The position numbers were made by a program, and so were the translations under genes. Positions 1,915 through 34,280 of a DNA stretch of 64,000 bases are shown here, in pieces. Below the pieces are notes generated by a model. That model had not been told where the DNA came from, ran no database searches, and saw only the letters and a list, made by a program, of their open reading frames with translations. Where the stretch lies: NCBI RefSeq assembly GCF_026210795.1, contig NC_089442.1:1116001-1180000 (forward strand), given 5' to 3'. The stretch's first letter is position 1. Every line of letters starts with the position of its first letter. Origin of the DNA: Rhizophagus irregularis (taxonomy: Eukaryota; Glomeromycota; Glomeromycetes; Glomerales; Glomeraceae).

Positions 1915-4240
1915 AATTTTGGGTCGGGTCATCAAACGTTTTTATAATTAAATATAAAAAAAATTGATTTTTTTTTATTAAAAACGTCAGACTTGACGTT
2001 TTTATGATTAAAAAATCATTTTTACGTTAGATTTGATTAAAAATCAAAAAAAATTGATTTTTTTGGTTAAAAACGTAAGACTTGGCGTTTTTGTAATTAA
2101 TAATCAAAAAAAAATGATTTTATTAATTAAAAACGTCAGACTTGACGTTTTTGTAATTAAAAAATCAAAAACTGAATTTTTTTAGTTAAAAAACGTCAGA
2201 CTTGACGTTTCTGTGGTTAAAAATTAGAGTTCTGAACAGGTTGTCCAAATTCAGGTAACCTGACAGGTTGACCTGAATTTATCAGGTCAGGTTTAGCAAT
2301 TTCGATTTGGCATCAGTTCAGGTTGTAACATCAGTAAAATCTGAATGACCTGTTGACCTGAAACTAACAATACTATTATTTTATAATAATATATTAAAAA
2401 AAACATCGGGAAAATGATTTTTCTATAAGATTATATTAGAAAAAACATTTCGCAACTTTTTTTTTGATATTTTATTGAAAAATGTTGCGAAAACATTTTT
2501 TCTATAAGATTATATTAGAAAAAAATGTTTTGCAACTTTTTTTTTGATATTTTATTGAAAAACGTTGCAAAAACATTTTTTCTATAAGATTATATTAGAA
2601 AAAAACGTTTTTAAAATTATTTTTAAATTAAAACTAATACTAAATTAGCTAAATTAGAATTAAGCAGTATTAAGAAAAATTCGCGAGAATTTCCCTTGAT
2701 ACTGCTTAATTTTTTAAATTAAAACCTAATACTAAATTAGCTAAATTAGAATTAAGCAGTATTAAGAAAAATTCGTGAGAATTTCTCTTGATACTGCTTA
2801 ATTTTTTAAATTAAAACCTAATACTAAATTAGCTAAATTAGAATTAAGCAGTATTAAGAAAAATTTGCGAGTATTTTCCTTGATACTGCTTAATTTTTTA
2901 AATTAAACCTAATACTAAATTAGCTAAATTAGAATTAAGCAGTATTAAGAAAAATTCATGAGAATTTCCCTTAATACTGCCTAATTTTTTAGGTTAAAAC
3001 CTAATACTAAATTAGCTAAATTATAATTTAAGCAGTATTAAGAAAAATTTGCGAGAATTCTCCTTGATACTGCTTAATTTTTTAAATTAAAACCTAATAC
3101 TAAATTAGCTAATTAGAATTAAGCTATTAGGTTGTAACATAGATTTTTTCGAATGTCATGATTTTATTGAAATGAACAAGTTCAAAATAAATCATATTTC
3201 ATATACTTTACATTTTATAGTCCTAACTCCCCTTTAAACAGAACTCTTGTTTTATTGAAAAATATTGCGAAGACGTTTTTTCTATAGAAAAAAACATTTT
3301 GCAATGTTTTTTTTTTGATATTTTATTGAAAAACGTTGCAAAATATTTTTTCCTAATATAATGATATAGAAAAAAACGTTTTCACAACGTTTTCCAATAA
3401 AATATCAAGAAAAATGTTGCGAAATGTTTTTTCCTAATATAATGTTATAGAAAAAATGTTTCGCAACATTTTTCTTGATATTTTATTGGAAAACGTTGTG
3501 AAAACGTTATTTCTATATCATTATATTAGGAAAAAATGTTTGCAACATTTTTCTTGATATTTTATTGCGAAATCGATTTTTCTATAAGATTATATTAGGA
3601 AAAAATGTTTTGCAACGTTTTTCTTGATATTTTATTGAAAAACGTTGCGAAAACGTTTTTTCTATAACATTATATTAGGAAAAAATGTTTCGCAACATTT
3701 TTTTTGATATTTTATTGAAAAACGTTGCGAAAACGTTTTTTCTATAACATTATATTAGGAAAAAATGTTTCGCAACATTTTTTTTTTATATTTTATTGAA
3801 AAATGTTGTGAAAACATTTTTTATATAACATTATATTAGAAAAAAACATTGCGCAACGTTTTTTTTCAATAATTTAATAAAAATCATTTGGGTTAACCTG
3901 AAATTTTTTAGGTTTCAGGTCAGGTCAGGTCAAACAGATAATCTGATATAACCTGACCTGACCTGACCTGACTAGAGCACCGCACGGGTCGGGTCAGGTC
4001 GGGTAATTTGTCTGACCTGAACCAAAAATTTTTATCAGGTCGGGTCGGGTCGGGTAATTTGTCTGACCTGAACCAAAAATTTTTATCAGGTCGGGTCGGG
4101 TCGGGTAACCTGCTCTGACCTGACCTGACCCGTTTGACCTGAAAGTATTCAGGTCATTTCAGGTAACCCGTTTTGACCTGAAAATATTCGGGTCATTTCA
4201 GGTGACCGGGTAATCTGATTTATAAAAAAAGAAAAAACGT
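1915..4240. repeat. Composite block of CAGGTCAGGT/GGGTCGGGTC repeats and AACGTTGCGAAAACG hairpin repeats
   Basis: Several modules are interleaved. Short hairpins of AAACGTCAGACTTGACGTTT type lie at about 1975-2215. CAGGT/ACCTG and GGGTC/GACCC repeats in both orientations lie at 2225-2370 and 3890-4215. Arrays of AACGTTGCGAAAACGTTTTT with TTTCTATAACATTATATTAGG spacers lie at 2390-2615 and 3245-3870. Every module is self-complementary, so the DNA could fold extensively. The sequence starting TAGAGCACCGCACGGG at 3974 resembles a hAT-type terminus, but I found no matching opposite end. Confidence 0.75.
2641..3125. repeat. Six-copy tandem repeat, period about 92 bp, each copy an imperfect palindrome
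   Basis: Copies of TAAATTAGCTAAATTAGAAT begin at 2641, 2733, 2825, 2916, 3008 and 3101. Within each full copy ATTAAGCAGTATTAAG is answered by CTTGATACTGCTTAAT about 20 nt later, so each unit can form a hairpin. The loop varies (TTCGCGAGAATT, TTCGTGAGAATT, TTTGCGAGTATT). There are no conserved-repeat/unique-spacer features, so this is a satellite-type array. Confidence 0.85.
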
Positions 4241-4309
4241 TGAGAAACATTCTTTTTAAATTAATTGTATATTAAAAAACGTTTTTGCAACGTTTTTTTT
4301 TATTTAATA

Positions 4310-5450
4310 AAATGCTAAAAAATGCCGTTTCGGCATTTTTCCATCAAATAATATGAAAAAATGCCGTTTTGGCGATTTTTTCATAAAAGAAGTGGAAAAA
4401 AATGCCGTTTTGGCATTTTTCCATAAGATAATATGAAAAAAGCCGATTTGGCGATTTTTTTCATAAAAGAAGTGAAAAAAAATGCCGTTTTGGCATTTTT
4501 TCATTAAATAATATGAAAAAAATGCCGTTTTGGCGATTTTTTTCATAAAAGAAGTGAAAAAAAATGTCGTTTTGGCGATTTTTTTCATAAAAGAAGTGAA
4601 AAAAAATGTCGTTTTGGCGATTTTTTTCATAAAAGAAGTGGAAAAAAATGCCGTTTTGGCATTTTTACATAAAATAATATGAAAAACGCCGTTTTGGCGA
4701 TTTTTTTCATAAAAGAAGTGAAAAAAAATGCCAAAACGGCATTTTTCCATAAGATAATATGAAAAAATTGCCGTTTTGGCGATTTTTTTCATAAAAAAAG
4801 TGAAAAAAAAATGCCGTTTTGGCATTTTTACATAAAATAATATGAAAAAACGCCGTTTTGGCGATTTTTTTCATAAAAGAAGTGAAAAAAAATGCCAAAA
4901 CGGCATTTTTTCATTAAATAATATGAAAAAAATGCCGTTTTGGCGATTTTTTTCATAAAAGAAGTGAAAAAAAATGTCGTTTTGGCGATTTTTTTCATAA
5001 AAGAAGTGAAAAAAAATGTCGTTTTGGCGATTTTTTTCATAAAAGAAGTGAAAAAAAATGCCAAAACGGCATTTTTCCATAAGATTATATGAAAAAATTG
5101 CCGTTTTGGCGATTTTTTTCATAAAAGAAGTGAAAAAAAAATCCCGTTTTGGCATTTTTACATAAAATAATATGAAAAAACGCCGTTTTGGCGATTATTT
5201 TCATAAAAGAAGTGAAAAAAAATGCTAAAACGGCATTTTTCCATAAGATAATATGAAAAAATTGCCGCTTTGGCGATTTTTTTCATAAAAGAAATGAAAA
5301 AAAATGCCGTTTCGGCATTTTTCCATAAGATAATATGAAAAAAGCCGCTTTGGCGATTTTTTTCATAAAAGAAGTGAAAAAAAATGCCAAAACGGCATTT
5401 TTCCATTAAATAATATGAAAAAATGCCGTTTTGGCGTTTTTTTTTAATAA
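4310..5450. repeat. 42-bp minisatellite of GCC-GTTTT-GGC palindromes
   Basis: About 26 units alternate AATGCCGTTTTGGC(GA/ATT) with TTTTTCATAAAAGAAGTG. The period is exactly 42 bp where it can be measured (for example ATGTCG at 4564 and 4606). Because 42 is a multiple of 3, the minus strand reads as long repetitive ORFs of the MKKIAKTAFFFTSF type. These look like by-products of the repeat and are not called as genes. Some units carry the core inverted (GCCAAAACGGC). Confidence 0.85.
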
Positions 5451-12476: not shown

Positions 12477-14105
12477 TATGGCAAGCCGAGCTGGACTAAA
12501 CTATCAGGCATTGGACGGGTGAAAAATCAAGCATGGATTGACAAAATGTTACACCATGCCTGACATTTTACCTGTTCATGCTTGATTTTCATCTGTCCCG
12601 TGCTTGATATTTATCTGTATGTGCTTGATATTTTTATCTGTTCATGCTTGATGTTTATCTATCACGTGCTTGATATTTTTATCTGTTCATGCTTGATGTT
12701 TATCTGTACGTGCTTGATGTTTTACCTGTACGTGCTTGATGTTTTATCTGTATGTGTTTGATGTTTATCTGTACGTGCTTGATAATTATCTGTACGTGCT
12801 TGATGGTTTTATCTGTACGTGCTTGATGGTTTTATCCGACCATGCTTGTCATTTTTATCCGTCCGTGCTTTATTTTTTTATCCGTCTGTGCTTGATATTT
12901 TTGTCCGTATGTGCTTGATGTTTTTGTCCAACTGTGTTTGATTTAATCCAACTATACTCGATAATTTTATCTTTATCAAAAATTAGTTTCTTTGTCAGCA
13001 CAGGGTTGATATTTTGTCGGTCACATGTTTTTAAGTTTAGCGTAGTTTTAAAAAAAATTTTTTTTTTTTATTGGCTTTTTTTTATAAACAAATTTTGTAG
13101 GGAATTTTTATTTTTAATATAGGCAAAGGCTTTGTTCGGTAGAATTTCTTTGGGAATTTTTTAATAAGATTTTTTTTGATAAAAAATTTCGTTAGAAATT
13201 TTTTTTCACATTTCTGAGTTTTTTTTTTGATGATTATTTCGTTAAAAACTTTTATTTGATAGAAATTTTATTGGAGAATTTTTTTTTAATAAGATTTTTT
13301 TTTTTTGACATATACTTAATTTGTTGGAACAATTTTTTTTAACAAGGAGAGATTTTTTTTTTTGATAGAGAATTAATTGAGAATTTTTTTTTTTTGTAGA
13401 AAATTATTTGAAGAATTTTTTTAATAGGGAAGATTTTTTTTTTAATAGATAATTTCGTTACTAGAAAATTTTTTTAACTAGTGAGATTTTTTTTTGATAG
13501 AGAATTTTGTTAAGAATTTTTTTTTAATAGGAGGGAGTTTTCCTTGATAAAGAATTCTTTTGGGAATTTTTTTTAATAGGTGAAAGTATTTTTGACGGAG
13601 AATTTTATTAGAGAATTTTTTTTTTTTGTTGATAGAAATTTCATCATAAAATTTTCTTTTTAATAGGTAAGATATTTTTTTTTTTGATAGTTAATAATTT
13701 TTTTAACAGGAGATTTTTTTTTTTGATAGAAAATTTTGGTAAAGAATTTTTTTTTTGGAATTTTTTTTTAATAGGAGGGAAGTTTTTTTTTTGATAGAAA
13801 TTCTTTTGAGAACTTTTTTTAATAGGTAAGAATCTTTGAATTTTTTTTTAATAGGGAAAATGTATTTTTTGATGGAAGATTTTCGTTAGAAAATTTTCTT
13901 AATCAGGGATATTTTTTTTGATTGAGAATTTCATTAGAGAATTGTTGGTTGAAAAGTCTTTTTATATTTTTGATGGAGAATTTTGTTAGAAGTCTCAATA
14001 GAAAATTTTATTGAAAATAGTTTTTTTTTAATAAGGGTATCGAGAATTTTGGCTTGAAATTTTTTTTTTAATAAAGAATTTCATTAGAGATCTTTTTTTA
14101 TAAAA
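12477..14105. repeat. Left arm of the foldback element
   Basis: Two internal repeat fields. At about 12560-12960 are ~20-bp units of the type TGTACGTGCTTGATGTTTTA. At about 13140-14105 are T-rich units built around GATAGAGAATTT, TTAGAGAATTTTTTTT and TAATAGG. The right arm repeats both in inverted order. A 62-codon chance ORF at 12934-13122 reappears in the other arm with a single residue change, showing how similar the arms are. Confidence 0.85.
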
Positions 14106-15089: not shown

Positions 15090-15720
15090 GGAGTAATGGA
15101 AAGTAATAGAAGATGAAAGGGAGTAAAAAAGAGTAATGAGAAGTGATAGGAAACAAAAAGGAGAAATAGGACATGATGAGAGACGAAAATGAGTGATGAG
15201 AGACAAAAAGAAGTGATTGGAGACAAAGAGGAGTAATGGGTGACAAAGAGGAGTGATGGGAGATAAAAAAAAGAAGTGATGGGAAGATTAAGAGGAGTGA
15301 TGGGAGACAAAAGGAAGTGATGAAAGACGAAGAGGAGTGATGGGAGACGAAAAGGAGTGATGGGAGACGAAAAGAAGTGATGGGAGACAAAGAGGAGTGA
15401 TGGGTGACGAAGAGGAGTGACGGGAGATAAAAAGGAGTGATGGGAGACGAAAAGAAGTGATGGGAGACGAAAAGAAGTGATGGGAGACGAAAAGAAGTGA
15501 TGGGAAGATTAAGAGGAGTGATGGGAAACGAAAAGGAGTGATAGGAGATGAAAAGAAGTGATGGGAAGATTAAGAGGAGTGATAGGAGACGAAAGGGAGC
15601 GATGGGAGATGAAAAAGAGTGATGGGAGACGAAAAGGAGTGATAGGAGACGAAGAGGCGTGATGGGAGACGAAAAGGAGCGATAGAAGATTAAAAGAAGT
15701 GATGAGAAGATGAAGAGGAG
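15090..15720. repeat. 20-bp minisatellite (GATGGGAGACGAAAAGGAGT)n
   Basis: About 28 degenerate units in the spacer of the foldback element. Variants change GGAGT/GAAGT and insert GGAAGATTAAGA. The minus-strand reading of 276 codons (Ser/Leu/His-rich) simply translates the repeat and is not called as a gene. Confidence 0.85.
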
Positions 15721-15783
15721 TAAAAATTTATTAAAATTGTAAAATTTAATAAAAAATTTCCGATAAATTTTCAATCAATTTTT

Positions 15784-17389
15784 TATAAAAAAAAAGATTC
15801 CAAATGAAATTCTTTATTAAAAAAAAATTTCAAGCCAAAATTCTCGATACCCTTATTAAAAAAAAACTATTTTCAATAAAATTTTCTATTGAGACTTCTA
15901 ACAAAATTCTCCATCAAAAATATAAAAAGACTTTTCAACCAACAATTCTCTAATGAAATTCTCAATCAAAAAAAAATATCCCTGATTAAGAAAATTTTCT
16001 AACGAAAATCTTCCATCAAAAAATACATTTTCCCTATTAAAAAAAAATTCAAAGATTCTTACCTATTAAAAAAAGTTCTCAAAAGAATTTCTATCAAAAA
16101 AAAAAACTTCCCTCCTATTAAAAAAAAATTCTAAAAAAAAAATTCTTTACCGAAATTTTCTATCAAAAAAAAAAATCTCCTGTTAAAAAAATTATTAACG
16201 AAATGATCTATCAAAAAAAAAAAATCTTACCTATTAAAAAGAAAATTCTATGATGAAAATTTCTATCAAAAAAAAAAAATTCTCTAATAAAATTCTCCGT
16301 CAAAAATACTTTCACCTATTAAAAAAAATTCCCAAAAGAATTCTTTATCAAAGAAAACTCCCTCCTATTAAAAAAAAATTTTAATGAAATTCTCTATCAA
16401 AAAAAAATCTCACTAGTTAAAAAAATTTTCTAGTAACGAAATTATCTATCAAAAAAAAATCTTCCCTATTAAAAAAATTCTTCAAATAATTTTCTACAAA
16501 AAAAAAAAATTCTCAATTAATTCTCTATCAAAAAAAAAAATCTCTCCTGTTAAAAAAAATTGTTCCAACAAATTAAGTATATGTCAAAAAAAAAATCTTA
16601 TTAAAAAAAAATTCTCCAATAAAATTTCTATCAAATAAAAGTTTTTAACGAAATAATCATCAAAAAAAAAACTCAGAAATGTGAAAAAAATTTTCTAACG
16701 AAATTTTTTATCAAAAAAAATCTTATTAAAAAATTCCCAAAGAAATTCTACCAAACAAAGCCTTTGCCTATATTAAAAATAAAAATTCCCTACAAAATTT
16801 GTTTATAAAAAAAAGCCAATAAAAAAAAAACAATTTTTTTAAAACTACGCTAAACTTAAAAACATGTGACCGACAAAATATCAACCCTGTGCTGACAAAG
16901 AAACTAATTTTTGACAAAGATAAAATTATCGAGTATAGTTGGATTAAATCAAACACAGTTGGACAAAAACATCAAGCACAGACGGACAAAAATATCAAGC
17001 ACAGACGGATAAAAACATAAAGCATGGATGGATAAAAATGTCAAGCATGGTCGGATAAAACCATCAAGCACGTACAGATAATTATCAAGCACGTACAGAT
17101 AATTATCAAACACATACAGATAAAACATCAAGCACGTACAGATAAAACATCAAGCACGTACAGATAAACATCAAGCATGAACAGATAAAAATATCAAGCA
17201 CGTGATAGATAAACATCAAGCATGAACAGATAAAAATATCAAGCACATACAGATAAATATCAAGCACGGGACAGATGAAAATCAAGCATAAACAGGTAAA
17301 ATGTCAGACACGGAGTGACATTTTGTCTAGCCATGCTTGATATTTTATCGCACAATGTCTGATAATTTTGTCCAACTCGGCTTGCCATA
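15784..17389. repeat. Right arm of the foldback element
   Basis: Reverse complement of the left arm with only small differences. The AATTCTCTATCAAA field (15784-16740) precedes the CAAGCACGTACAGATAAACAT field (about 16930-17310). Confidence 0.85.
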
Positions 17390-18371: not shown

Positions 18372-21291
18372 ATGTCATCTCAAAATGATATTATATGCGA
18401 AAGTTGTGGTAAAATATATTCATATATAGGTGAAAAATGGTGTAAGCCATGTTTAATAAATAATTTAAAAAAAAATTTTACAAACTGGACTAGTGGAAAT
18501 GAAAAAATTGATAAAATTATTCAAGAAATACAATCAAAGATTAATAAAGAGGAAGATATAATTGTTGAATGGATACCTTATAACCAATTCAATAGTATTA
18601 AAAAATTAATCAAAGATGATTTTGCTACAGCAATATGGAAGGATGGCTCATTAATATATATTAAACAAGATAGGAAACGTGAAAGAGTACCTAATAAAGA
18701 AGTTACTTTAAAATACTTGAATAATTCGCAAGATGTTATTAATGATTTGCTGAATGAGGTATGAAACTTCTAATTTTTTCAGTATTTAATCTTTAAAAAA
18801 TGTTTTTTTATAACAACATTTTTATATTTAACAGATTAAAGCATATTCTATTAGAGTTGACGAATGTAAGATTCCTAAAATACATGGAATATCCCAAAAT
18901 CCAGATACAAAAGATTACGTTATAGTGTTTCAAAATGATTGTAATTGCAAAGAATGTGGTGATATATATACAGATATAGAGGTTAAATGGTGTAAACCAT
19001 GTCAAATAAATAATATGAAACAAAACTTGGCAAATTGGACCAGCGGCAATGAAAAAATTGATGAATTTATTCAAGAAATCCAATTGAATATTGAAAAAGA
19101 TGATATAATTATTGAATGGATACCTTATAACCAATTTAGTGATATTAAAGAAATAAAAAAAGATGATTCGGCTAGTGTATATTCGGCAATATGGAAGAAT
19201 GGTTTATTAAAATATAATTATGAAGAAAGGAAATATAAAAGAAATCCTAATAAAAATGTCACTTTAATGCGTTTTAATAATTCACAAAATATTATTAATG
19301 ACTTTCTAAATGAGGTATGAAACTTCCAATTTTTTGTAATAAATTTTTAAAAATATATTATAACAACTTTTTATATTTAACAGATTAAAGCATATTCATT
19401 TAAATTAAATGAATATACAATGTGTGGAATATCCCAAAATCCTGATACGAATGATTATGTTATAGTGTTTCAAAATGATTGTAATTGCAAAGAACGTGGT
19501 GATGTAGATACAGATAAAAAATTTGAATGGTGTAGACCATGTCAAATAAGTAATTTAAAACAGAATTTTTCAAGCTGGACTAGTGGAAATAATGAAATTG
19601 ATAATTTTATTCAAGAAATGCAATTAAAAATTGAAAGTCATAATGATATAATAGTTGAATGGATACCTTATAACCAATTTAGTATTATTGAAGAAATAAG
19701 CAATGGTGATTTTGCAAGAGTATATTTGGCAAAATGGAAGAATGGTTTACTAGAGTATAAAGAAGGAAAATATAAAAGAAATCCTAGTAAAGAAGTTACT
19801 TTAAAATGCTTAAATAATTCACAAAATGTTATTGATAACTTGCTAAATAAGGTATGAAACTTCTAAATTTTTGTACTTAATCTTTATAAATACTTTTAAT
19901 ATACCAACTTTTTTATGTAACAGGTTAAATCATATTCTATTAAAATAAATGAAGGTAACATTGCTAAAATATATGGAATATCCCAAAATCCAGATACAAA
20001 AGATTATGTTATAGTATTACCAACTGATTGTAATTGCAAAAAATGTGGTGAAATATATACTAATATACTTGTTAAATGGTGTAAACCATGCCAAATAAAT
20101 AATTTAAAACAAGATTTTGTAAACTGGACTAGTGGAAATGAAGCAATCGATAATTTTATTCAAAAAATGCAATTAAAAATTGAAAGATATAATGATATGG
20201 TTGTTAAATGGATACCATATAACCAATTTAATATTATTCAAGAAATAGGTAAAGGTGGATTTGCTACAGTTTACTTAGCAACTTGGAATTATAGGAAAGT
20301 TGCTTTAAAATGCTTGCATAATTCCCAAAATATTACTAATGAATTTTTAAATGAGGTATGAAATAATTTATTTTTTTTAAGCTTTATTAAATACTTTTAA
20401 AATGATGAATAATGATATTTTTATTTTTAATAGATTAGTGCATATTCTATTCATTCTGTTGATTGTATTCTCAAAATATGTGGAATATCTCAAAATCCGG
20501 ATACAAAAGACTATATTATTGTACTTGAATATGCAAATGGGGGAAGTCTTAATAATCACAATAATGATATTATTAGGGATTACAATTGGAGGGAAAAATT
20601 GTATGTGCTAAGTGATATTATTAAAGGTCTTAAAAAAATTCATGAAAATAAAGCAGTTCATCGTGATTTTCATACAGGAAATGTATTGGTATTATTTATT
20701 GATTGTGCTCGATATAATGGATCTGGAAATACTGCAAGTAATATATATATTTCAGATATGGGATTTTGTGGAGAAGTTAGTAATATAGATAAAACAAAAA
20801 TTTATGGAGTTATGCCATTTGTAGCTCCTGAAGTATTAAGAGGAAAGCCATATACTCAAGCAGCAGATGTATATAGTTTTGGTATGATTATGTATTATAT
20901 TGCAACTGGAAAACAACCTTTTGCCAAGTGTGCACATGATAATGTTTTAGCATTAAATATATGTAATGGAATTAGGCCTGAAATAAATGAGCAAGAAGCA
21001 CCAAAATTTTATATTAATCTAATGAAAATGTGTTGGGATCCAAATCCAGATAATAGACCTAGTGCATCTGAAGTGGATGAAGTTTTTGCATATTCTAGTT
21101 TAGGTATATTTGAGGAATTTAATAAGCAAATTAAAGAAGCAGATGAATATAGAAAAACAAATTTTTTATCTATTGAAAATAGTCAATCAATTCATCCACA
21201 AGCTTATTATACTTCTCGATTGCTCAATCCATTTACAAAAGATCTTTCAAATGATTATACTGATTGTTTGGACTGTAATATTAATGATTGA
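18372..21291 (+). CDS. Multi-module TKL-type kinase: four N-lobe modules, one C-lobe (5 exons, 874 aa)
   Basis: Exons: 18372-18758, 18835-19314, 19384-19851, 19924-20355, 20434-21291. Every intron (69-78 nt) is GT-AG and phase 0, so all exons join in frame. Exons 1-4 each encode a Cys knuckle (C-x2-C...KWCKPC), a WTSGN motif, EWIPYNQF, a Gly-loop region, the beta3 'VTLK' strand and alphaC ending LNE. Exons 2-4 begin with beta4-beta5-hinge of the preceding lobe (GISQNPDTKDYVIV). Only exon 4 has a full Gly-loop (GKGGFATVYLA) with VALK. Exon 1 lost the loop glycines, exon 2 also has Met for the Lys (VTLM), and exon 3 is partly degenerate. Exon 5 gives the C-lobe: HRDFHTGN, DMG in place of DFG, APE, DVYSFGMIM, and a YTSR-type tail. 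Exons 4+5 make a plausible active Ser/Thr or Tyr-like TKL kinase. Whether all exons are joined or used alternatively is not known. Confidence 0.75.
18835..20433 (+). repeat. Tandem exon-intron repeat, 3 units of about 510-550 bp, in kinase gene 1
   Basis: Unit starts are 18835, 19384 and 19924 (spacings 549 and 540, then 510 to exon 5). Each unit is a whole exon plus the following intron. Introns share the GTATGAAA(C/T) donor and similar T-rich bodies, so duplication copied exon and intron together. Confidence 0.8.
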
Positions 21292-25722: not shown

Positions 25723-27311
25723 ATGACTTCATTTTTTTATCCCAATCTTTCGAAAGATTTTTCCTTAATTTTAAATGATGCTGATGATTATAATGTTATT
25801 ATTAAAGTTGGAGAAAATGAAAATACAAAAGAATTTCGTGCTCATTCAGTAATTTTACGTGCTCGTTCTCCTTATTTCAAAAGTGCTCTTTCATCTAATT
25901 GGATCACAAAGAAAAATGATATGATCATGTTTAAAAAAACGAACATTACACCAAATATTTTTAACTTAATTTTAAGGTATGAATAATTTTTCATTTTTTT
26001 TTTAATTATTCTTATCAAATTAAATTAAATAATTTATTCATTAAAAAAAAATGTAATAATAATATAATTAGATATATTTACGTTGGCGAACTTGATTTAA
26101 CTGGACAATCTAGTAAAGATATTCTTGAATTATTAATCGCATCGGACGAATTACTTATTGGAGAGTTATTTAATTATGTTCAAGATTATTTAATTGAAAA
26201 ACGAATTGAGTGGATTCTTAAAAATTTATTTCTTGTTTTACATATTGCGTTTAAAATCACTGATTGCAAGAAATTACAAGATTATTGTATTGATATTATT
26301 TGTGAAGATACACATTTATTTATTACTTCAAACGAATTTCTTTCTCTAGATAAAGATATTATTTATAAAATACTTGAAAGAGATGACTTACGAATTAAAG
26401 AAGTCATCGTTTGGGATCGCTTAATTAAATGGGGTATTGAACAGACTCCTGGTTTGGGAAATGAGAATTGCTATGTAAACTTGCATCACTTAATTAAATG
26501 GGGTATTGAGCAAACTCCTGTTTCGGAAAATGAGAAGTGCGATATAAGCAAATGGTGCAATGAAGATTATGAAGCATTAAAGGAAATATTAAATCAATTT
26601 ATTCTTCTCGTTCGATTTGTAGAAATAACTTCTGATGATTTTAATAATAAAGTCAAACCATATAAGAATATTATTCCTAATCACATTTATGAAGAAATCG
26701 AAGAATTTTATAATAAAGGTACCTTTCCAAAAATAAATACTTTACCACCTAGAATAGGAAAACTTGATTCAAAAATTATCAACCCAAAACTCGCAAAAAT
26801 AATTATCAAATGGATTGTTAAAGAAGATTTCTGGATTTTACGTTATAAATTTAATCTTATGTATCGTGGTAGTATTGATGGTATTAGTTATGAAACATTT
26901 AAAAATAAATGTAAAGGTCAAATGGAAAGTTTGGTTTTAATTAAAGTTAAACATACAAATAAAATATTTGGTGGATATAGTTCTATTGGGTTTAATTCCA
27001 TTGGAAATAATGTTCCAAGTCTTAATGGTTTTGATAATACAAAGTATTATTATTCATCGGATAATTTTATTTTTTCATTTGAAAATGATGATGATACTCA
27101 AAATATGAAAATAAGTCGTGTGAGAAATTATAATAAGGCTATATACGATTATTATGGTACTGGATTTGATTTTGGTTTTGATTCATTGTTTATGTATCAT
27201 AATCAATGTTTGTATGCTAAAAATGATAGTAAAATTTACGAAGATAATTTAAATACAAATTCAGTTTATGAGATTGAAGAAATCGAAACATTCATTGTAA
27301 CTAAACAATAA
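25723..27311 (+). CDS. BTB-BACK-TLDc domain protein A (2 exons, 497 aa)
   Basis: Exon 1 is 25723-25976 (254 nt) and exon 2 is 26072-27311; the GT-AG intron is phase 2 and restores AGA-TAT (R-Y-I-Y-V-G-E). BTB/POZ residues ~1-95: DDYNVIIKVGE, EFRAHSVILRARSPYFKSAL. The BACK-like middle contains ELLIASDELL and LIKWGIEQTP, the latter duplicated at 69-bp spacing (26421 and 26490). TLDc, residues ~315-495: LDSKII, YRGSIDGIS, FGGYSSIGF, DNFIFSFEN, TGFDFGFDSLFM and a closing IEEIETFIV. BTB proteins commonly recruit Cullin-3 ligases; TLDc domains are linked to oxidative-stress protection and V-ATPase binding in other eukaryotes. The combination is common in Rhizophagus. The specific substrate is unknown. 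Confidence 0.88.
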
Positions 27312-28310
27312 TTTCAATATTTACTATGTAATTTACTTAATTAAAAGATTGGTTTAATTACGTGTGTATATATAGTAAGCAAATTATTCATTGTTAACTT
27401 GTATTTTCTTACCTTTATTTTACTCTTAATAATTTTATTTTTCTTTTCATTTTTAACATTACAATTGAATATAATGCTTATTCAAATCTGAAAACAAAAA
27501 AAGTACAAAAGAATATCATACATATTCAGTTATTTTACATCATCTCTTATGATCTTAAGACTTGTTAATAAATTAATGTCAATTTCAGCCTGCACTATAG
27601 TAATGATTTTGCCAACTTTACTGAGCATGATTGTCAATTAATTTCGCTATTCTCGTAAAACTTGATTTCATGTTAGTTTAATTTGATAAATTTCTTTGAA
27701 TTTATGAATAATTTAAATTTAATCAAATAGTAAATTGACCAATTAACTTGAAACAAATTTGCCAGAATAATATTTAGCATTGGCATAGTTTTGTATTTCG
27801 ATTAAATTCACTGTTCATGCAAAGAATATTTTTATAGCGTAAATTACTGTTCAATTATATTATAATAAAGATTCATACTATATTTATATTATAACTCATC
27901 ATATTAGCGTATAAATTTGTCCCATATAGGCGACATAAACAATGAACTAAATTACTTTTACAACCTAACCTTTAATAATAAAAAAATGACACATAAGTAC
28001 AATATAACTACTATGGAAAAGCCAAGAAATTATTTGTAACTTCTATGAAAGAATTTATACATTAAATAATATTTTTTAAAAGCTCGGAATTACTTAGATT
28101 TTGGTATACATAATTTTAAAATATTAAATAATAATAATACCTTTAAAATATTTTAATATTTGCTCACTTGACTGAAATATAACCTTACGGTAAAAGTTAG
28201 AGATTGTTAAATTGTTCCGCGTCAGTTGAATTTATCTGTATAATCACAAGAAATTGCATAATTGTTAAATAATTTTTTAAAAAAAAAAATTTTAATTCAA
28301 AATCGTGACA
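27312..28310. other. Intergenic stretch; weak BTB-like echo at its start
   Basis: Around 27480-27550 the string CAAAAGAATATCATACATATTCAGTTATTTTACATC resembles the 'KEFRAHSVILR' part of the BTB exon, suggesting a short decayed copy. The rest is AT-rich without ORFs. Confidence 0.35.
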
Positions 28311-28812
28311 TCCAAATACGATTTTATTGAATGTAAATACTGTGGTAATTTATATATAATTAGTCGATTCAAATGGTACAAACCATGCCAAATAGATAAT
28401 TTAAGACATATGTTTAAAACTGGGCCAGCGGAAACGAAAAAACTGATAAATCAATTCAGGAAATAACAATTTTACGCAGGTGCGTTGCAACGCACCCACA
28501 AATTATTAAATAGTAAATTTGCTGATCATAACGTGATCATAAATGATCGACAAATTACTATTTAAAAATTTCCAAAAAAGGGGTGCGTTCAAACGCCGGT
28601 GCGTTCAAATTTTAAACCCTTAATAATTAATAGATTTGATAATATAATAGACCAGTTTAAATATATTAAAGAAATGGACAGAAATGATTCCACTGCACTA
28701 TATTCAGCAATATGGCCATTAGAATATGAATACAAAATGAAATAGGAAAGAGTGCCTAATAAATGCGTATATATAATTCACAAAATATTATCAATGAATT
28801 TTAAGTGAGGTA
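28311..28812 (+). pseudogene. Dead kinase N-lobe module with internal insertion
   Basis: Reading frames recover pieces like kinase gene 1 exon 1: ECKYCGNLYI, KWYKPCQIDNL, then after a 1-nt slip NWASGNEKTDKSIQEI. After an unrelated insert of about 150 nt come QFKYIKEMDRNDS and YSAIW, then ERVPNK and a final GAGGTAAG donor-like sequence. Stops and frameshifts rule out function. The insert (about 28470-28620) includes the perfect 18-bp palindrome GGTGCGTTGCAACGCACC at 28479-28496 and imperfect inverted repeats, so it looks like a small MITE. It shows that module-1-type exons were also spread to the neighbourhood of kinase gene 2. Confidence 0.65.
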
Positions 28813-29407: not shown

Positions 29408-32400
29408 ATGTACCCTTTTAACAAAGTTATCAAAAAGCTAATTAAGTCATCACATGTTAAGGAATATAAAATATGTGATAAATGTAATTATATATGTGAT
29501 GCAAAACTTTTTCAACAAAATTTTGGAAATTGGACTAGTGGTAATAATGAAATTGATAAATTTATTCAAGATACTCAGCTTTCAGCTCATAATGATGTGA
29601 AGAAAGCATTAGAATGGATACCTCATAATAGATTATACAATATTAAATATATTGCAAAAAATGAGTTTGGCAAAAAATATAGAGCAAATTGGATTGATGG
29701 AAATATAAATAATCGGAATGTTGTAAATCAAATTTGGGAAAGAATAAATTATAATATGTTTGTAATTCTGGTAAGCTTAAATAATTTAAAAAATCTTACA
29801 CAAGAATTTAAAAATAAGGTATGATAAACTTATTTAGTAAAATTTTAAAATTTTGAATATTTTGGTTTTTACTAATATTACTATCTTTTACAGATTAAAA
29901 TAGAATGTGAATTTTATGGAATAACTCAAGATCCAGAAACAAAAAATTATATAATGGTTTTAAATAATAAATGTAAAAAGTGTAATAGTGGTATATGTAA
30001 CATAATATACTTTCAACATAAATTCATAGATTGGACTAGTGGTAATAATGATATTGATAAATTTATTCAAGAGACTCAGAAATCAGTTCATAAAGAGAGT
30101 GAAATATCACATGCATTAGAATGGATACCTTATGATAGATTGTATGATATTAAATATATTGCAAAAGATGGTTTTGGCAAAGTGTATAGGGCAAATTGGA
30201 TTGATGGCTATATAACTTATTGGAATATTGAAAATCAGAATTGGAAAAGAAAAGATTATAATATGTTTGTGATTTTGAAGAGTTTAAATACTCTAAAGAA
30301 TCTTACATTAGAAATTGTAAATGAGGTATAAACTTCAGTTATTACTTAACAAAATTATTAACATTTTATTTAATAATATATTATTACATTTGTAGATTAA
30401 ACTTGAACATGAAATTTATGGAATAACTCAGGATCTAGAAACAGAAAATTACATGATGGTTCTGAATAATAAATGTAAAATGTGTAATGGCATATGTTAC
30501 GCAATACATTTTCAACATAAATTCATAGATTGGACTAGTGGTAATAATGATATTGATAAATTTATTCAAGATACTCAGCTTTCAACTCATGGCAATATAA
30601 AGAAAGCATTAGAATGGATACCTTATGGTAAATTGTATGGTATTACATATTTTGCAAAAGATGGTTTTGGGAAAGTATCATATGAGGTATATTGGATTGA
30701 TGGTTATATAATTAATTGGAATAATGAAAATCAAAATTGGAAAAGAAAAGATTATACATCTGTGTTTTTGAAGAGTTTAAATAAAAAAAATCTTATATTA
30801 GAAGTTGTAAATAAGGTATAACCTTCAGTTAGTATACTTAACAAAATTATAAACATTTTATTTACTAATAAACTATTACATTTATAGATTAATATGGTTT
30901 ATGGAATAACTCAGAATCCAGAAACAAAAAATTATATGATGGTTTTGAGCCATGAATGCAAAAAGTGCAACAGTATGTGTAACATAATACACTTTCAACA
31001 TAAATTTATAGATTGGACTAGTGGTAATAATGATATTGATAAATTTATTCAAGATACTCAGCTATCAGTTCATAAAGATAGTGAAATGTCACATGCATTA
31101 GAATGGATACCTTATGATAGATTGGAGAATTTTAAATATGTTGCAGAAGGTAGTTTTGGTAAAGTGTATAGGGCAAATTGGATTGATGGCTATATGGCTA
31201 ATTGGAATAGTAAAAATCAAGATTGGAAAAGAAAAGGTTATAATATGTTTGTAATTTTGAAGAGTTTAAATATTCCAAAAAATCTCATATTAGAAATTGT
31301 AAATGAAGTATAAACTAAGTTATTACTTAACAAAATTATAATGGTTTATTTACTAATACATTATTATATTTATAGACTAAAATTGAACATGAAATTTATG
31401 GAATAACTCAGGATCCAGAAACAAAAAATTACATGATAATTCTGAATAATAAATGTAAAATGTGTAATAGTATATGTTATGCAATATACTTTCAACATAA
31501 ATTTATAGATTGGACAAGTGGTAATAATGATATTGATAAATTTATTCAAGATACTCAGCTATCAGTTCATAAAGATAGTGAAATGTCACATGCATTAGAA
31601 TGGATACCTTATAGTAGATTGGATGATATTAAATATGTTGCAGAAGGTGGTTTTGGCAAAGTGTATAGGGCAAATTGGATTGATGGTTATATGGCTAATT
31701 GGAATAGTGAAAATCAAGATTGGAAAAGAAAAGGTTATAATATGTTTGTGATTTTGAAGAGTTTGAATATTCTAAAAAATCTTATATTAGAAATTGTAAA
31801 TGAGGTGAGGTATAAACTTCAGTTATTACTTAACAAAATTATAAAAATTTTATTTACTAATACATTATTACATTTGTAGATTAAAATTGAACATGAAATT
31901 TATGGAATAACGCAAGATCCAGAAACAAAAAATTACATGATGGTTCTGAATAATAAATGTAAAATATGTAAAAGTATATGCTATGCAATATACTTTCAAT
32001 ATAAATTCATAGATTGGACAAGTGGTAATAATGATATTGATAAATTTATTCAAAATACTCAGCTATCAGTTCATAAAGATAGTGAAATGTCACATGCATT
32101 AGAATGGATACCTTATGGTAGATTTGAAGATATTAAATATATTGCAGAGGGTGGTTTTAGCAAAGTGTATAGGGCAAATTGGATTGATGGTTGTATAACT
32201 AATTGGAATAGTGAAAATCAAAATTGGAAAAGATATGGAAATAGAGATGTAATTCTCAAAGGTTTAAATAATTTAAAGATTATTACAAAATTTACAAATA
32301 ATGAGGTGCAGTATAATAAATTTAATACCAATAACATTTTAAAGTTTTTAATTTTTACTAATATATTCGTATTTGTAGGTCAATATATCTTTTGGAATAA

Positions 32401-34280
32401 CTCAAGATCCAGAAACAAAAAATTATATGATGGTTTTGAATAATAAATTTAAAATATGTAAAACATGCAATGGTATATGTCATGCAATATACTTTCAATA
32501 TAAATTCATGGATTGGACAAGTGGTAATAATGATATTGATAAATTTATTCAAGATATTCAGAAATCAGCTCATTATAATGTAGAGAAAGCATTAGAATGG
32601 ATACCTTATGATAGATTGTATGATATTAAATATATTGCAAAAGATGGTTTTGGCAAAGTGTATAGGGCAAATTGGATTGATGGTTATATGGTTTATTGGA
32701 ATAGTGAAAATCAAAATTGGTTAAGAAAATGTTATAATATGTATGTGATTTTGAAGAATTTAAATACTTCAAAAAATCTTATATTAGGATTCGTAAATAA
32801 GGTAATAAGCTTCAGTTATTACTTAACAAAATTATAACATTTTATTTACTAATATATTATTGCATTTGTAGATTAAAATTGAACATGAATTTTATGGAAT
32901 AACGCAAGATCCAGAAACAAAAAATTACATGATGGTTCTGAATAATAAATGTAAAATGTGTAAAGGTATATGTTATGCAATACACTTTCAACATAAATTC
33001 ATGGATTGGACTAGTGGTAATAATGATATTGATAAATTTATTCAAGATACTCAGAAATCAGTTCATAAAGATAGTGAAATATCACATGCATTAGAATGGA
33101 TACCTTATGATAGATTGTATGATATTGAATATATTGCAAAAGGTGGTTTTGGCAAAGTGTTTAGGGCAACTTGGATTGATAGTTTTATAACTAATTGGAA
33201 TAGTGAAAATCAAAATTGGAAAAGATATAATGAAAATATGTTTGTAGCTCTGAAAAGTTTAGATAATTCAAAAAATGTTACATCAGAATTTATGAATGAG
33301 GTATAATTTGATTAATTAATTATTTTTTTTTTTTTTGATCATAATACTTAGATTGTTTGCTTTACTAATATATTTTGTATTTTTGCATTTACATCATAGA
33401 TTATGCTGCATAATAAAGTAAAAATAGATAATAATGTAATTGTTAGATTTTATGGAATAACTCAGGATCCAAAAACAAAAAATTATATGATGGTTCTAGA
33501 TTATGCAGAAGATGGAAGTTTACGAAATTATTTAGATAAGGAATATAAGCTTAATTGGGATATAATGTTTGAATATTTACAAAATATTATTGTTGGACTT
33601 AAATGTATTCATGAAAAGGAATTTATTCATCGAGATTTGCATATTGGGAATATATTAAAGTTTAAATATAAAACTGCTATAACTGATTTGGGATTATGTA
33701 AACCTGCAAATTTAGAAAATGCAAAAACCAACATATATGGTGTTTTACCTTATATAGCACCTGAAATTTTAAGGGGACAAAATTATACCAAAGCTGGTGA
33801 TATTTATAGTTTTGGCATAATAATGTATGAAGTGATTTCCGGATTACCCCATATCATGATTTAAAACATGATAATAATTTAGCAATAAAAATTTGTAAAG
33901 GACTTAGACCAAGATTTAACATTAAAGTACCACAATTAATTGTGCATTTAATTAAAAGATGTTTAGATGCCAATCCATTAAATCGACCAATAGCAAAAGA
34001 AATAATTGATATTTTATTTAGATGGCAATATGAATCTAGCAATGAACAAACAATAGAATTACGAGCACAAATTAAAGAAGCCGATGAAATAAACAATAAT
34101 TCGCCGAGTAGCAGTATACTTACTTCAACTAATTTAGGAATATCATATAATACACATTCAGAAGCTATTTATACAAGTAGATTACTCGATTTTAATAATC
34201 TTCCTGTACCAAAAAATTCTGACGATTATTATGAACAAAATAATAATATAATTAGCGAGGAATTTTCAGGTATCATTTAA
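29408..34280 (+). CDS. Multi-module TKL-type kinase: eight N-lobe modules, one C-lobe (9 exons, frameshift in last)
   Basis: Exons: 29408-29818, 29894-30325, 30396-30815, 30888-31307, 31376-31804, 31880-32305, 32379-32801, 32872-33300, 33400-34280. All introns are GT-AG and phase 0. Modules 1-8 carry a Cys knuckle, DWTSGNNDIDKFIQ, ALEWIPY, a Gly-loop and a beta3 strand. Loops range from KNEFGKKY (module 1, no beta3 Lys) through AKDGFGKVY and AEGGFGKVY to AKGGFGKVFRATW with VALK in module 8. Each following exon starts with beta4-beta5-hinge (GITQDPETKNYMMVL). Exon 9 encodes HRDLHIGN, DLG for DFG, APE and DIYSFGIIM. It breaks at 33847-33850: four C where five keep the frame, producing a stop at 33862-33864. 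The frame from about 33851 to 34280 holds the C-lobe end and tail. With the frame intact the protein would be about 1420 residues. The break is either a recent lesion or a homopolymer error. Confidence 0.7.
29894..33399 (+). repeat. Tandem exon-intron repeat, 7 units of about 490-530 bp, in kinase gene 2
   Basis: Unit starts 29894, 30396, 30888, 31376, 31880, 32379 and 32872 (spacings 488-504), then 33400. Neighbouring units are very similar in exon and intron. For example most introns share CTTCAGTTATTACTTAAC and ACATTATTACATTTGTAG-like bodies, which points to recent unequal crossing-over or gene conversion. Confidence 0.85.

Follow-up and report, generated by a model that had tools for sequence, protein, structure and literature searches.

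A Tandem Array of Kinase Half-Domains in Rhizophagus irregularis

We analyzed a 64,000-nucleotide stretch of the Rhizophagus irregularis genome (the window, C14:1116001-1180000) and identified at positions 29408-34280 of its forward strand an array of repeated exons that encode parts of protein kinase amino-terminal lobes (N-lobes) and lead to one exon for a carboxy-terminal lobe (C-lobe). The array belongs to a genome-wide family, represented in the window by a second gene as well, and each array is probably one gene whose polypeptide would carry a ladder of non-catalytic pseudo-N-lobes ahead of a single working kinase. A preliminary description of the window had placed a tandem exon array at this site, with all of its borders in phase 0, and both the coordinates and the anatomy were borne out. 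The array comprises nine phase-0 exons (E1-E9, Table 1), with GT after each of E1-E8 and AG before E2-E9, and Tandem Repeats Finder returned a period of 499 bases for positions 29491-33303 (7.7 copies, 81% matches). E1-E8 are 411-432 bases long and every one is divisible by three; the introns of the array measure 68-75 bases, except for the 99 bases that precede E9.

The exons E2-E8 are built in the same order. Each opens with the beta4-beta5-hinge part of one N-lobe (consensus YGITQDPETKNYMMVLNNK), the hinge joins a cysteine knuckle directly, with no C-lobe between them, and the exon continues through a WTSGN..IDKFIQ segment to the beta1-Gly loop-beta2-beta3 part and the start of the alphaC helix of the next N-lobe. 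The proposed layout of serial N-lobe modules over phase-0 exon borders is thereby supported, and the same build recurs in other arrays. The knuckle of the window array has three cysteines (C-x2-C-x3-C), with one extra residue in E2. A zinc knuckle uses four metal ligands, and no fourth cysteine is invariant among E2-E8. The last N-lobe, which starts in E8, has its Gly-rich loop, VAxK lysine and alphaC glutamate, and the open first part of E9 matches the Pfam family Pkinase (E 8.2e-31). The N-lobe elements of the upstream modules align by eye with those of E8 and E9, with a shortened alphaC-beta4 region. A profile check of each module was less favorable to the preliminary description: searched singly against Pfam with E values up to 1, E1-E8 matched a kinase family in 0 of 8 cases, and therefore the N-lobe label rests on their alignment with E8+E9 and on the paralogues. 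Approximately 1 kb upstream of the array, positions 28296-28463 (+) hold the isolated remnant of one knuckle exon (ECKYCGNLY...WYKPCQIDNLRHMF), for which we saw no intact continuation.

A Genome-Wide Family of Arrays

We searched for relatives of the array in an assembly of 146,748,485 bases and 32 contigs; the report on R. irregularis DAOM197198 lists 32 chromosomal units and 146,773,001 bp (PMC10234402). The first query, a 64-residue hinge-to-knuckle peptide of E8, had 2,964 first-look candidates. The best 150 were scored and all of them span the query from residue 8 or earlier to residue 61 or later, with an in-frame stop in 4 of the 150. They form at least 47 same-strand clusters of junction exons on at least 14 contigs. 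A degenerate DNA pattern of the hinge-knuckle junction occurred at 201 places versus none in the reversed control. For the second query, a 90-residue peptide from a diverged array on contig C25, the best 150 of 2,768 candidates were scored; 134 were kept (start at query residue 4 or earlier) and 16 dropped (start at residue 10 or later). The matches that were kept form at least 70 clusters on at least 18 contigs, at sites that are, by eye, distinct from the 47 of the first query. A third query, from an array on contig C7, had 4,748 candidates, and nearly all of the best ~150 cover its full 151 residues. Where a cluster consists of one hit, that hit alone does not establish an array.

Using a hidden Markov model of E2-E8 together with the C-lobe of E9, we annotated 27 stretches (the window array and 26 others), which yielded 209 internal exons, 25 C-lobe exons, 25 first-type pieces and 8 fragments; some of the first-type pieces are remains of broken units. 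The internal exons have a phase-0 acceptor where expected in 205 of 209 cases and an exact donor in 199, and only one carries an in-frame stop. Joinable in-frame exons with splice signals, as a single multi-module gene demands, are thus the rule. Of the 188 introns measured, 97 have a CTAAY branch-like motif close to the 3' end (12 in shuffles). Seventeen stretches begin with a first-type exon, reach a C-lobe exon without a called fragment and contain 5 to 20 modules each, although two of them are not clean (a gap of two unit lengths in C2:5008437; a first exon at the edge of the stretch in C2:5851000). The longest array, C2:5555300-5567225, has 20 modules, or ~2,780 residues ahead of the C-lobe exon.

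Each of the 25 stretches that reach a C-lobe exon has exactly one above 100 bits; within the fetched stretches of C10:736896 (a broken unit) and C23:1546000, no C-lobe exon was found. With the second window gene included, the arrays have 4 to 20 modules and a single C-lobe. All 25 C-lobes retain the DxG and APE motifs, and 23 read HRD and two HQD. Apart from the C-lobe of the window array, 21 are open to a stop (259-315 residues) and three stay open as far as the sequence was fetched. The serial N-lobe modules with one terminal C-lobe that had been described for the window array are the anatomy of 24 arrays with a whole module directly ahead of the C-lobe exon (the window array included), of three arrays of diverged subfamilies and of the second window gene; the locus is no isolated oddity. 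Two arrays in opposite orientation, C2:5387740-5394000 (-) and C2:5424500-5430599 (+), have similar exon spacing and C-lobe features; they are perhaps copies of one array and could be useful for dating its duplication. No relatives were confirmed in prokaryote genomes or IMG/VR viral contigs, collections that are not fungal.

These results also bear on whether the array is an artifact of assembly or a row of many small separate genes. The DNA identity among E2-E8 (83-91%) is high and speaks for an artifact. Against it stand the 9-17% difference among these exons, the variation in length and sequence from array to array, and the at least 47 and at least 70 clusters across the genome. The likely source assembly was built from Nanopore long reads with uniform coverage (PMC10234402), and the 188 introns are too short (57-90 nt) to separate genes. 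Both possibilities are extremely improbable.

Catalytic Completeness of the Last Module

The catalytic residues set the last module of an array apart. We aligned 234 modules, 24 of which lie directly ahead of a C-lobe exon (last modules), 21 are first and 189 are other, internal modules; three stretches in which no last module was scored supply 18 of the 210 non-last modules. Four features were scored: the Gly-Gly of the glycine loop, the Ala and the Lys of VAxK, and the alphaC Glu. The last modules have Gly-Gly in 24 of 24, Ala in 23, Lys in 24 and Glu in 24. Among the internal modules, Gly-Gly is found in 3 of 189 (two of them E5 and E6 of the window), Ala in one and the alphaC Glu in 91 (Lys replaces it in 86), and the glycine loop has a gap in 61. 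First modules resemble the internal ones (Gly-Gly 0/21, Ala 0, Lys 19, Glu 10). Of the 24 last modules, 23 combine all four features, whereas none of the 210 others does; the N-lobes of an array are thus unequal, a correction to the preliminary description. In each of the 24 arrays the last module outscores every other; the product of 1/n under random position is ~1e-22, a figure that is not a true probability because the arrays share descent. The window array, where E5 and E6 score three of four, is the mildest case of the asymmetry. By eye, it extends to two arrays on C25 (one of whose last modules reads VVLK and has three of the four features), to the C7 array (two modules read) and to the second window gene. 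As judged from these residues, only the last N-lobe is kept catalytically complete.

The upstream modules of the window subfamily differ from the last one in length as well. In 200 of the 209 internal exons (those where the motif was found) 4-9 residues precede the beta4 motif YGIT, versus 15-17 in all 25 C-lobe exons. Where the motif was found, these modules are therefore ~10 residues shorter around the alphaC-beta4 junction. They are not the complete N-lobes of the preliminary description, given this deletion and the incomplete catalytic set of all modules but the last.

The asymmetry is central to deciding how the exons are used. One alternative is that they are N-lobe cassettes, spliced alternatively so that each joins the single C-lobe and produces kinases that differ in their N-lobes. 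All borders of the window array are in phase 0 and, therefore, any exon could be skipped without a change of frame; tandem duplicated exons in similarly phase-compatible arrays can be spliced in a mutually exclusive manner (PMC9013439, PMC9741552). The Rhizophagus modules are, unlike such exons, not equivalent, and cassettes would have to function with a full catalytic set in 0 of 210 upstream modules versus 23 of 24 last ones. Furthermore, a lone cassette would still leave a hinge-knuckle junction in the product, since the internal exons open with the hinge of the preceding module. Because of this asymmetry we rejected mutually exclusive splicing as the principal explanation, and consider cassettes very unlikely, although exon skipping that changes the length of an array may be compatible with the same evidence.

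A second alternative retains the joined exons but not the register in which we read them. Each exon could fold on its own as a circularly permuted N-lobe, its beta4-beta5 pairing with its own beta1-beta3; exon and module would then coincide, and by sequence the ~50-residue linker from beta5 to beta1 could allow it. Yet the kinase forms only if E8 pairs with beta4-beta5 from E9, so that the ancestral register crosses the exon border. We regard self-contained modules as quite unlikely.

Signs of Constraint on the Upstream Modules

In a neutral simulation, 21, 9 and 5% of exons stayed open at 5, 7.5 and 10% divergence per lineage, respectively. The median divergence between copies within an array is 15%, and 188 of 189 internal exons are open, a count taken after the exclusion of fragments. 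All three knuckle cysteines (C-x2-C-x3-C) are present in 181 of 189 internal modules and in each of the 24 last ones; in diverged subfamilies the knuckle reads C-x2-C ... C-x2-C. The most conserved segment of the internal modules is FQ..F.DWTSGN..IDKFIQDTQ, and beta1 is also kept upstream. Variation is greatest in the linker that follows the IDKFIQ segment, the insert between beta2 and beta3, alphaC and the Gly loop. Last modules, compared between arrays, have a median ratio of nonsynonymous to synonymous substitution rates (dN/dS) of 0.42 over 275 pairs; for internal modules within arrays the median is 0.61 over 26 arrays, with array medians of 0.45 to 1.20.

Such values leave room for a relaxed by-product, in which unequal crossing-over builds transcribed arrays whose idle upstream modules drift while the kinase tolerates them. 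The moderate dN/dS, the lost Gly-Gly, the often missing alphaC Glu, a few units in fragments and the frameshift in the C-lobe of the window array (see below) all speak for it. Stops are, however, absent from 188 of 189 internal exons when ~9% are expected to be open under neutrality (fragments excluded beforehand), and the internal modules have kept their splice sites, their knuckle cysteines and a highly conserved WTSGN/IDKFIQ segment. An open frame could merely protect the downstream kinase, but the conservation of the cysteines is not so explained, even if recent homogenization within arrays could account for part of it. The by-product explanation is weakened by these findings and we consider it unlikely.

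Several observations weigh against a ladder of constrained, non-catalytic modules in one working protein. A dN/dS of 0.61 indicates moderate constraint only, two of the 26 array medians exceed 1 (1.16 and 1.20), several pairs of window modules are near or above 1, and the Nei-Gojobori method behind all of these ratios is crude at a guanine-cytosine content of 25%. Because detection began from open frames, broken units are undercounted; 8 fragments accompany the 209 internal exons, and one array is interrupted for two unit lengths. The beta3 Lys is retained in 167 of 189 internal modules. The arrays are related by descent and, consequently, their 24 complete last modules are not 24 independent events; on a FastTree tree inferred without the trait columns the label of last module needs 12 changes, at least 5 of them on well-supported branches (92 of the 231 inner branches are weak). 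On this tree the class has no single origin, as the last modules are not one clade. AlphaFold models made from the window sequence only had mean values of the predicted local distance difference test (pLDDT) of 36.9 for E5 heading an alignment of the seven window exons and 34.8 for an E5-intron-E6 read-through aligned with two similar pairs; both alignments were too shallow, and the models are uninformative on the fold of the modules. Finally, the frame of E9 breaks after GLP, near 33845, as assembled: a one-base frameshift at a site where the window has four C and its relatives have five bases. The assembly report gives a quality value (QV) of 36.27 (PMC10234402), which by our arithmetic is about one error per 4 kb; because of this, the break may be a sequencing error or a real lesion.

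A Second Array Gene and Other Features of the Window

A gene of another subfamily at 18372-21291 (+) also has serial N-lobes: three degenerate modules, one canonical last module and the C-lobe (Table 1). Its five phase-0 exons encode 874 codons plus a stop, and the frame of its C-lobe is intact through the stop. The alphaC-beta4 trimming of the window subfamily is absent (13-16 residues in exons 2-4 versus 15 in the C-lobe exon, by eye).

Table 1. Exons of the two serial N-lobe genes in the window
Feature	Positions	Strand	Content
E1	29408..29818	+	start codon, Cys knuckle, WTSGN/IDKFIQ, first pseudo-N-lobe (Val for the beta3 Lys, Lys for the alphaC Glu)
E2	29894..30325	+	module 1 beta4-hinge, knuckle, module 2 start (KDGFGKV / VILK / NE)
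E3	30396..30815	+	module 2 hinge, knuckle, module 3 start; alphaC Glu replaced by Lys
E4	30888..31307	+	module 3 hinge, knuckle, module 4 start (EGSFGKV / VILK / NE)
E5	31376..31804	+	module 4 hinge, knuckle, module 5 start (EGGFGKV, yet VILK)
E6	31880..32305	+	module 5 hinge, knuckle, module 6 start (EGGFSKV, yet VILK)
E7	32379..32801	+	module 6 hinge, knuckle with extra residues, module 7 start; alphaC Glu replaced by Lys
E8	32872..33300	+	module 7 hinge, knuckle, start of last N-lobe (KGGFGKV / VALK / FMNE), the sole catalytically complete one
E9	33400..34280	+	rest of alphaC, alphaC-beta4 loop, beta4-beta5-hinge, single C-lobe (HRDLHIGN, DLG, APE)
Second gene, exon 1	18372..18758	+	4-Cys knuckle, first pseudo-N-lobe
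Second gene, exon 2	18835..19314	+	hinge, knuckle, pseudo-N-lobe (KKDDSASV / VTLM)
Second gene, exon 3	19384..19851	+	hinge, knuckle, pseudo-N-lobe (SNGDFARV / VTLK / NK)
Second gene, exon 4	19924..20355	+	hinge, knuckle, catalytically complete last N-lobe (GKGGFATV / VALK / NE)
Second gene, exon 5	20434..21291	+	C-lobe (HRDFHTGN, DMG, APE), open through stop

Elsewhere in the window, an open frame at 25983-27311 (+) carries a BACK domain (E 1.7e-8) and a TLDc domain (E 3.2e-12) and contains a 69-base tandem duplication at 26416-26547. Minisatellites occupy positions 2036-5444, 12566-12925, 15174-15721 and 16965-17301, with units of 60, 80, 92 and 82 bases, and one 20-base unit is repeated 27 times. 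Tandem Repeats Finder also identified repeats of the ATCAAGCACGTACAGAT type at 12.6 and 17.0 kb, which are related to each other but oppositely oriented.

Proposed Origin and Function of the Ladder

The anatomy of the arrays suggests a path from an ordinary kinase gene to a pseudo-N-lobe ladder. The ancestral gene would have had an intron at the border of alphaC and beta4. A tandem duplication could then have fused the hinge codons to the codons just ahead of the knuckle, creating the phase-0 exon that runs from beta4 and the hinge through the knuckle and N-lobe to alphaC, and unequal crossing-over would have multiplied this exon without breaking the frame. By sequence, the last N-lobe, adjoining the C-lobe, has been kept catalytically complete, and the upstream modules have lost some ATP-site residues and, in the window subfamily, ~10 residues around the alphaC-beta4 junction. 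In two-lobed kinases the alphaC-beta4 segment packs on the C-lobe. The upstream modules may then serve as a repeat scaffold, placed in cis to one kinase, that acts in multivalent binding or in regulation and is free to change in length. Its likeliest putative contacts would be between N-lobes, with the terminal or sister kinases, or with a partner of the knuckle/IDKFIQ surface. We infer this scaffold role from the features described above.

Relation to Known Kinases and Significance

Ordinary kinases of the same genome share parts of this plan. Two of them (L004 and L007) follow the order of knuckle, WTSG, N-lobe and C-lobe found in the arrays, and a third (L003) combines the WTSGN motif with a single N-lobe exon but shows no clear knuckle. 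Unlike the arrays, they have one N-lobe with a canonical Gly-Gly, and we saw no hinge-to-knuckle junction in them. The window itself contains a kinase-like gene of ordinary architecture at 52320-50787 (-), spread over several frames or exons, in which one N-lobe was found (ARGGFGIIY). The solved structures closest in sequence to E8+E9 include PKC theta (for the C-lobe), IRAK4 and JAK2. IRAK4 and other kinases of the TKL type have a catalytic domain comparable to E8+E9 but lack serial N-lobes.

Tandem pseudokinase-kinase proteins (the JAK family and plant tandem kinase proteins) are the nearest functional analogue of the arrays, because they too place a non-catalytic, kinase-derived domain in cis to one active kinase. 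Each of their pseudokinases has both lobes. In the Rhizophagus arrays, by contrast, the repeated unit is half a domain, and 4 to 20 such units precede a single C-lobe. The upstream modules also depart from the two-lobed fold by which pseudokinases are usually recognized, for they have no C-lobe and their hinge runs into the knuckle. Among the titles and abstract beginnings of the open-licence papers listed, we found no description of a serial N-lobe architecture, and the passages on kinases in PMC10234402 do not mention serial N-lobes. Within the open-licence literature searched, the serial pseudo-N-lobe ladder looks like an undescribed build of signaling protein. The upstream exons of the window are singly invisible to Pfam and, therefore, the architecture can hide in annotation.

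The N-lobe and C-lobe of kinases are usually treated as one evolutionary unit. In the arrays, the N-lobe multiplies alone and one copy stays catalytic. If the modules are joined in messenger RNA, the natural range of the family, from 4 to 20 modules, would lend itself to tests of kinase regulation by repeated non-catalytic half-domains, in a type of locus able to change its length and keep its frame. A broader and more tentative possibility is that half a kinase domain has become a free-standing tandem-repeat module, comparable to leucine-rich or ankyrin repeats, and that many loci of pseudo-N-lobe ladders, variable in length and each connected to one kinase, give arbuscular mycorrhizal fungi a repertoire for recognition or signaling that can be expanded. 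For R. irregularis, a count of 2,533 kinase genes has been reported (PMC10234402). If this proposal is true, much of the unexplained expansion of Rhizophagus kinases would represent one receptor-like or scaffold system.

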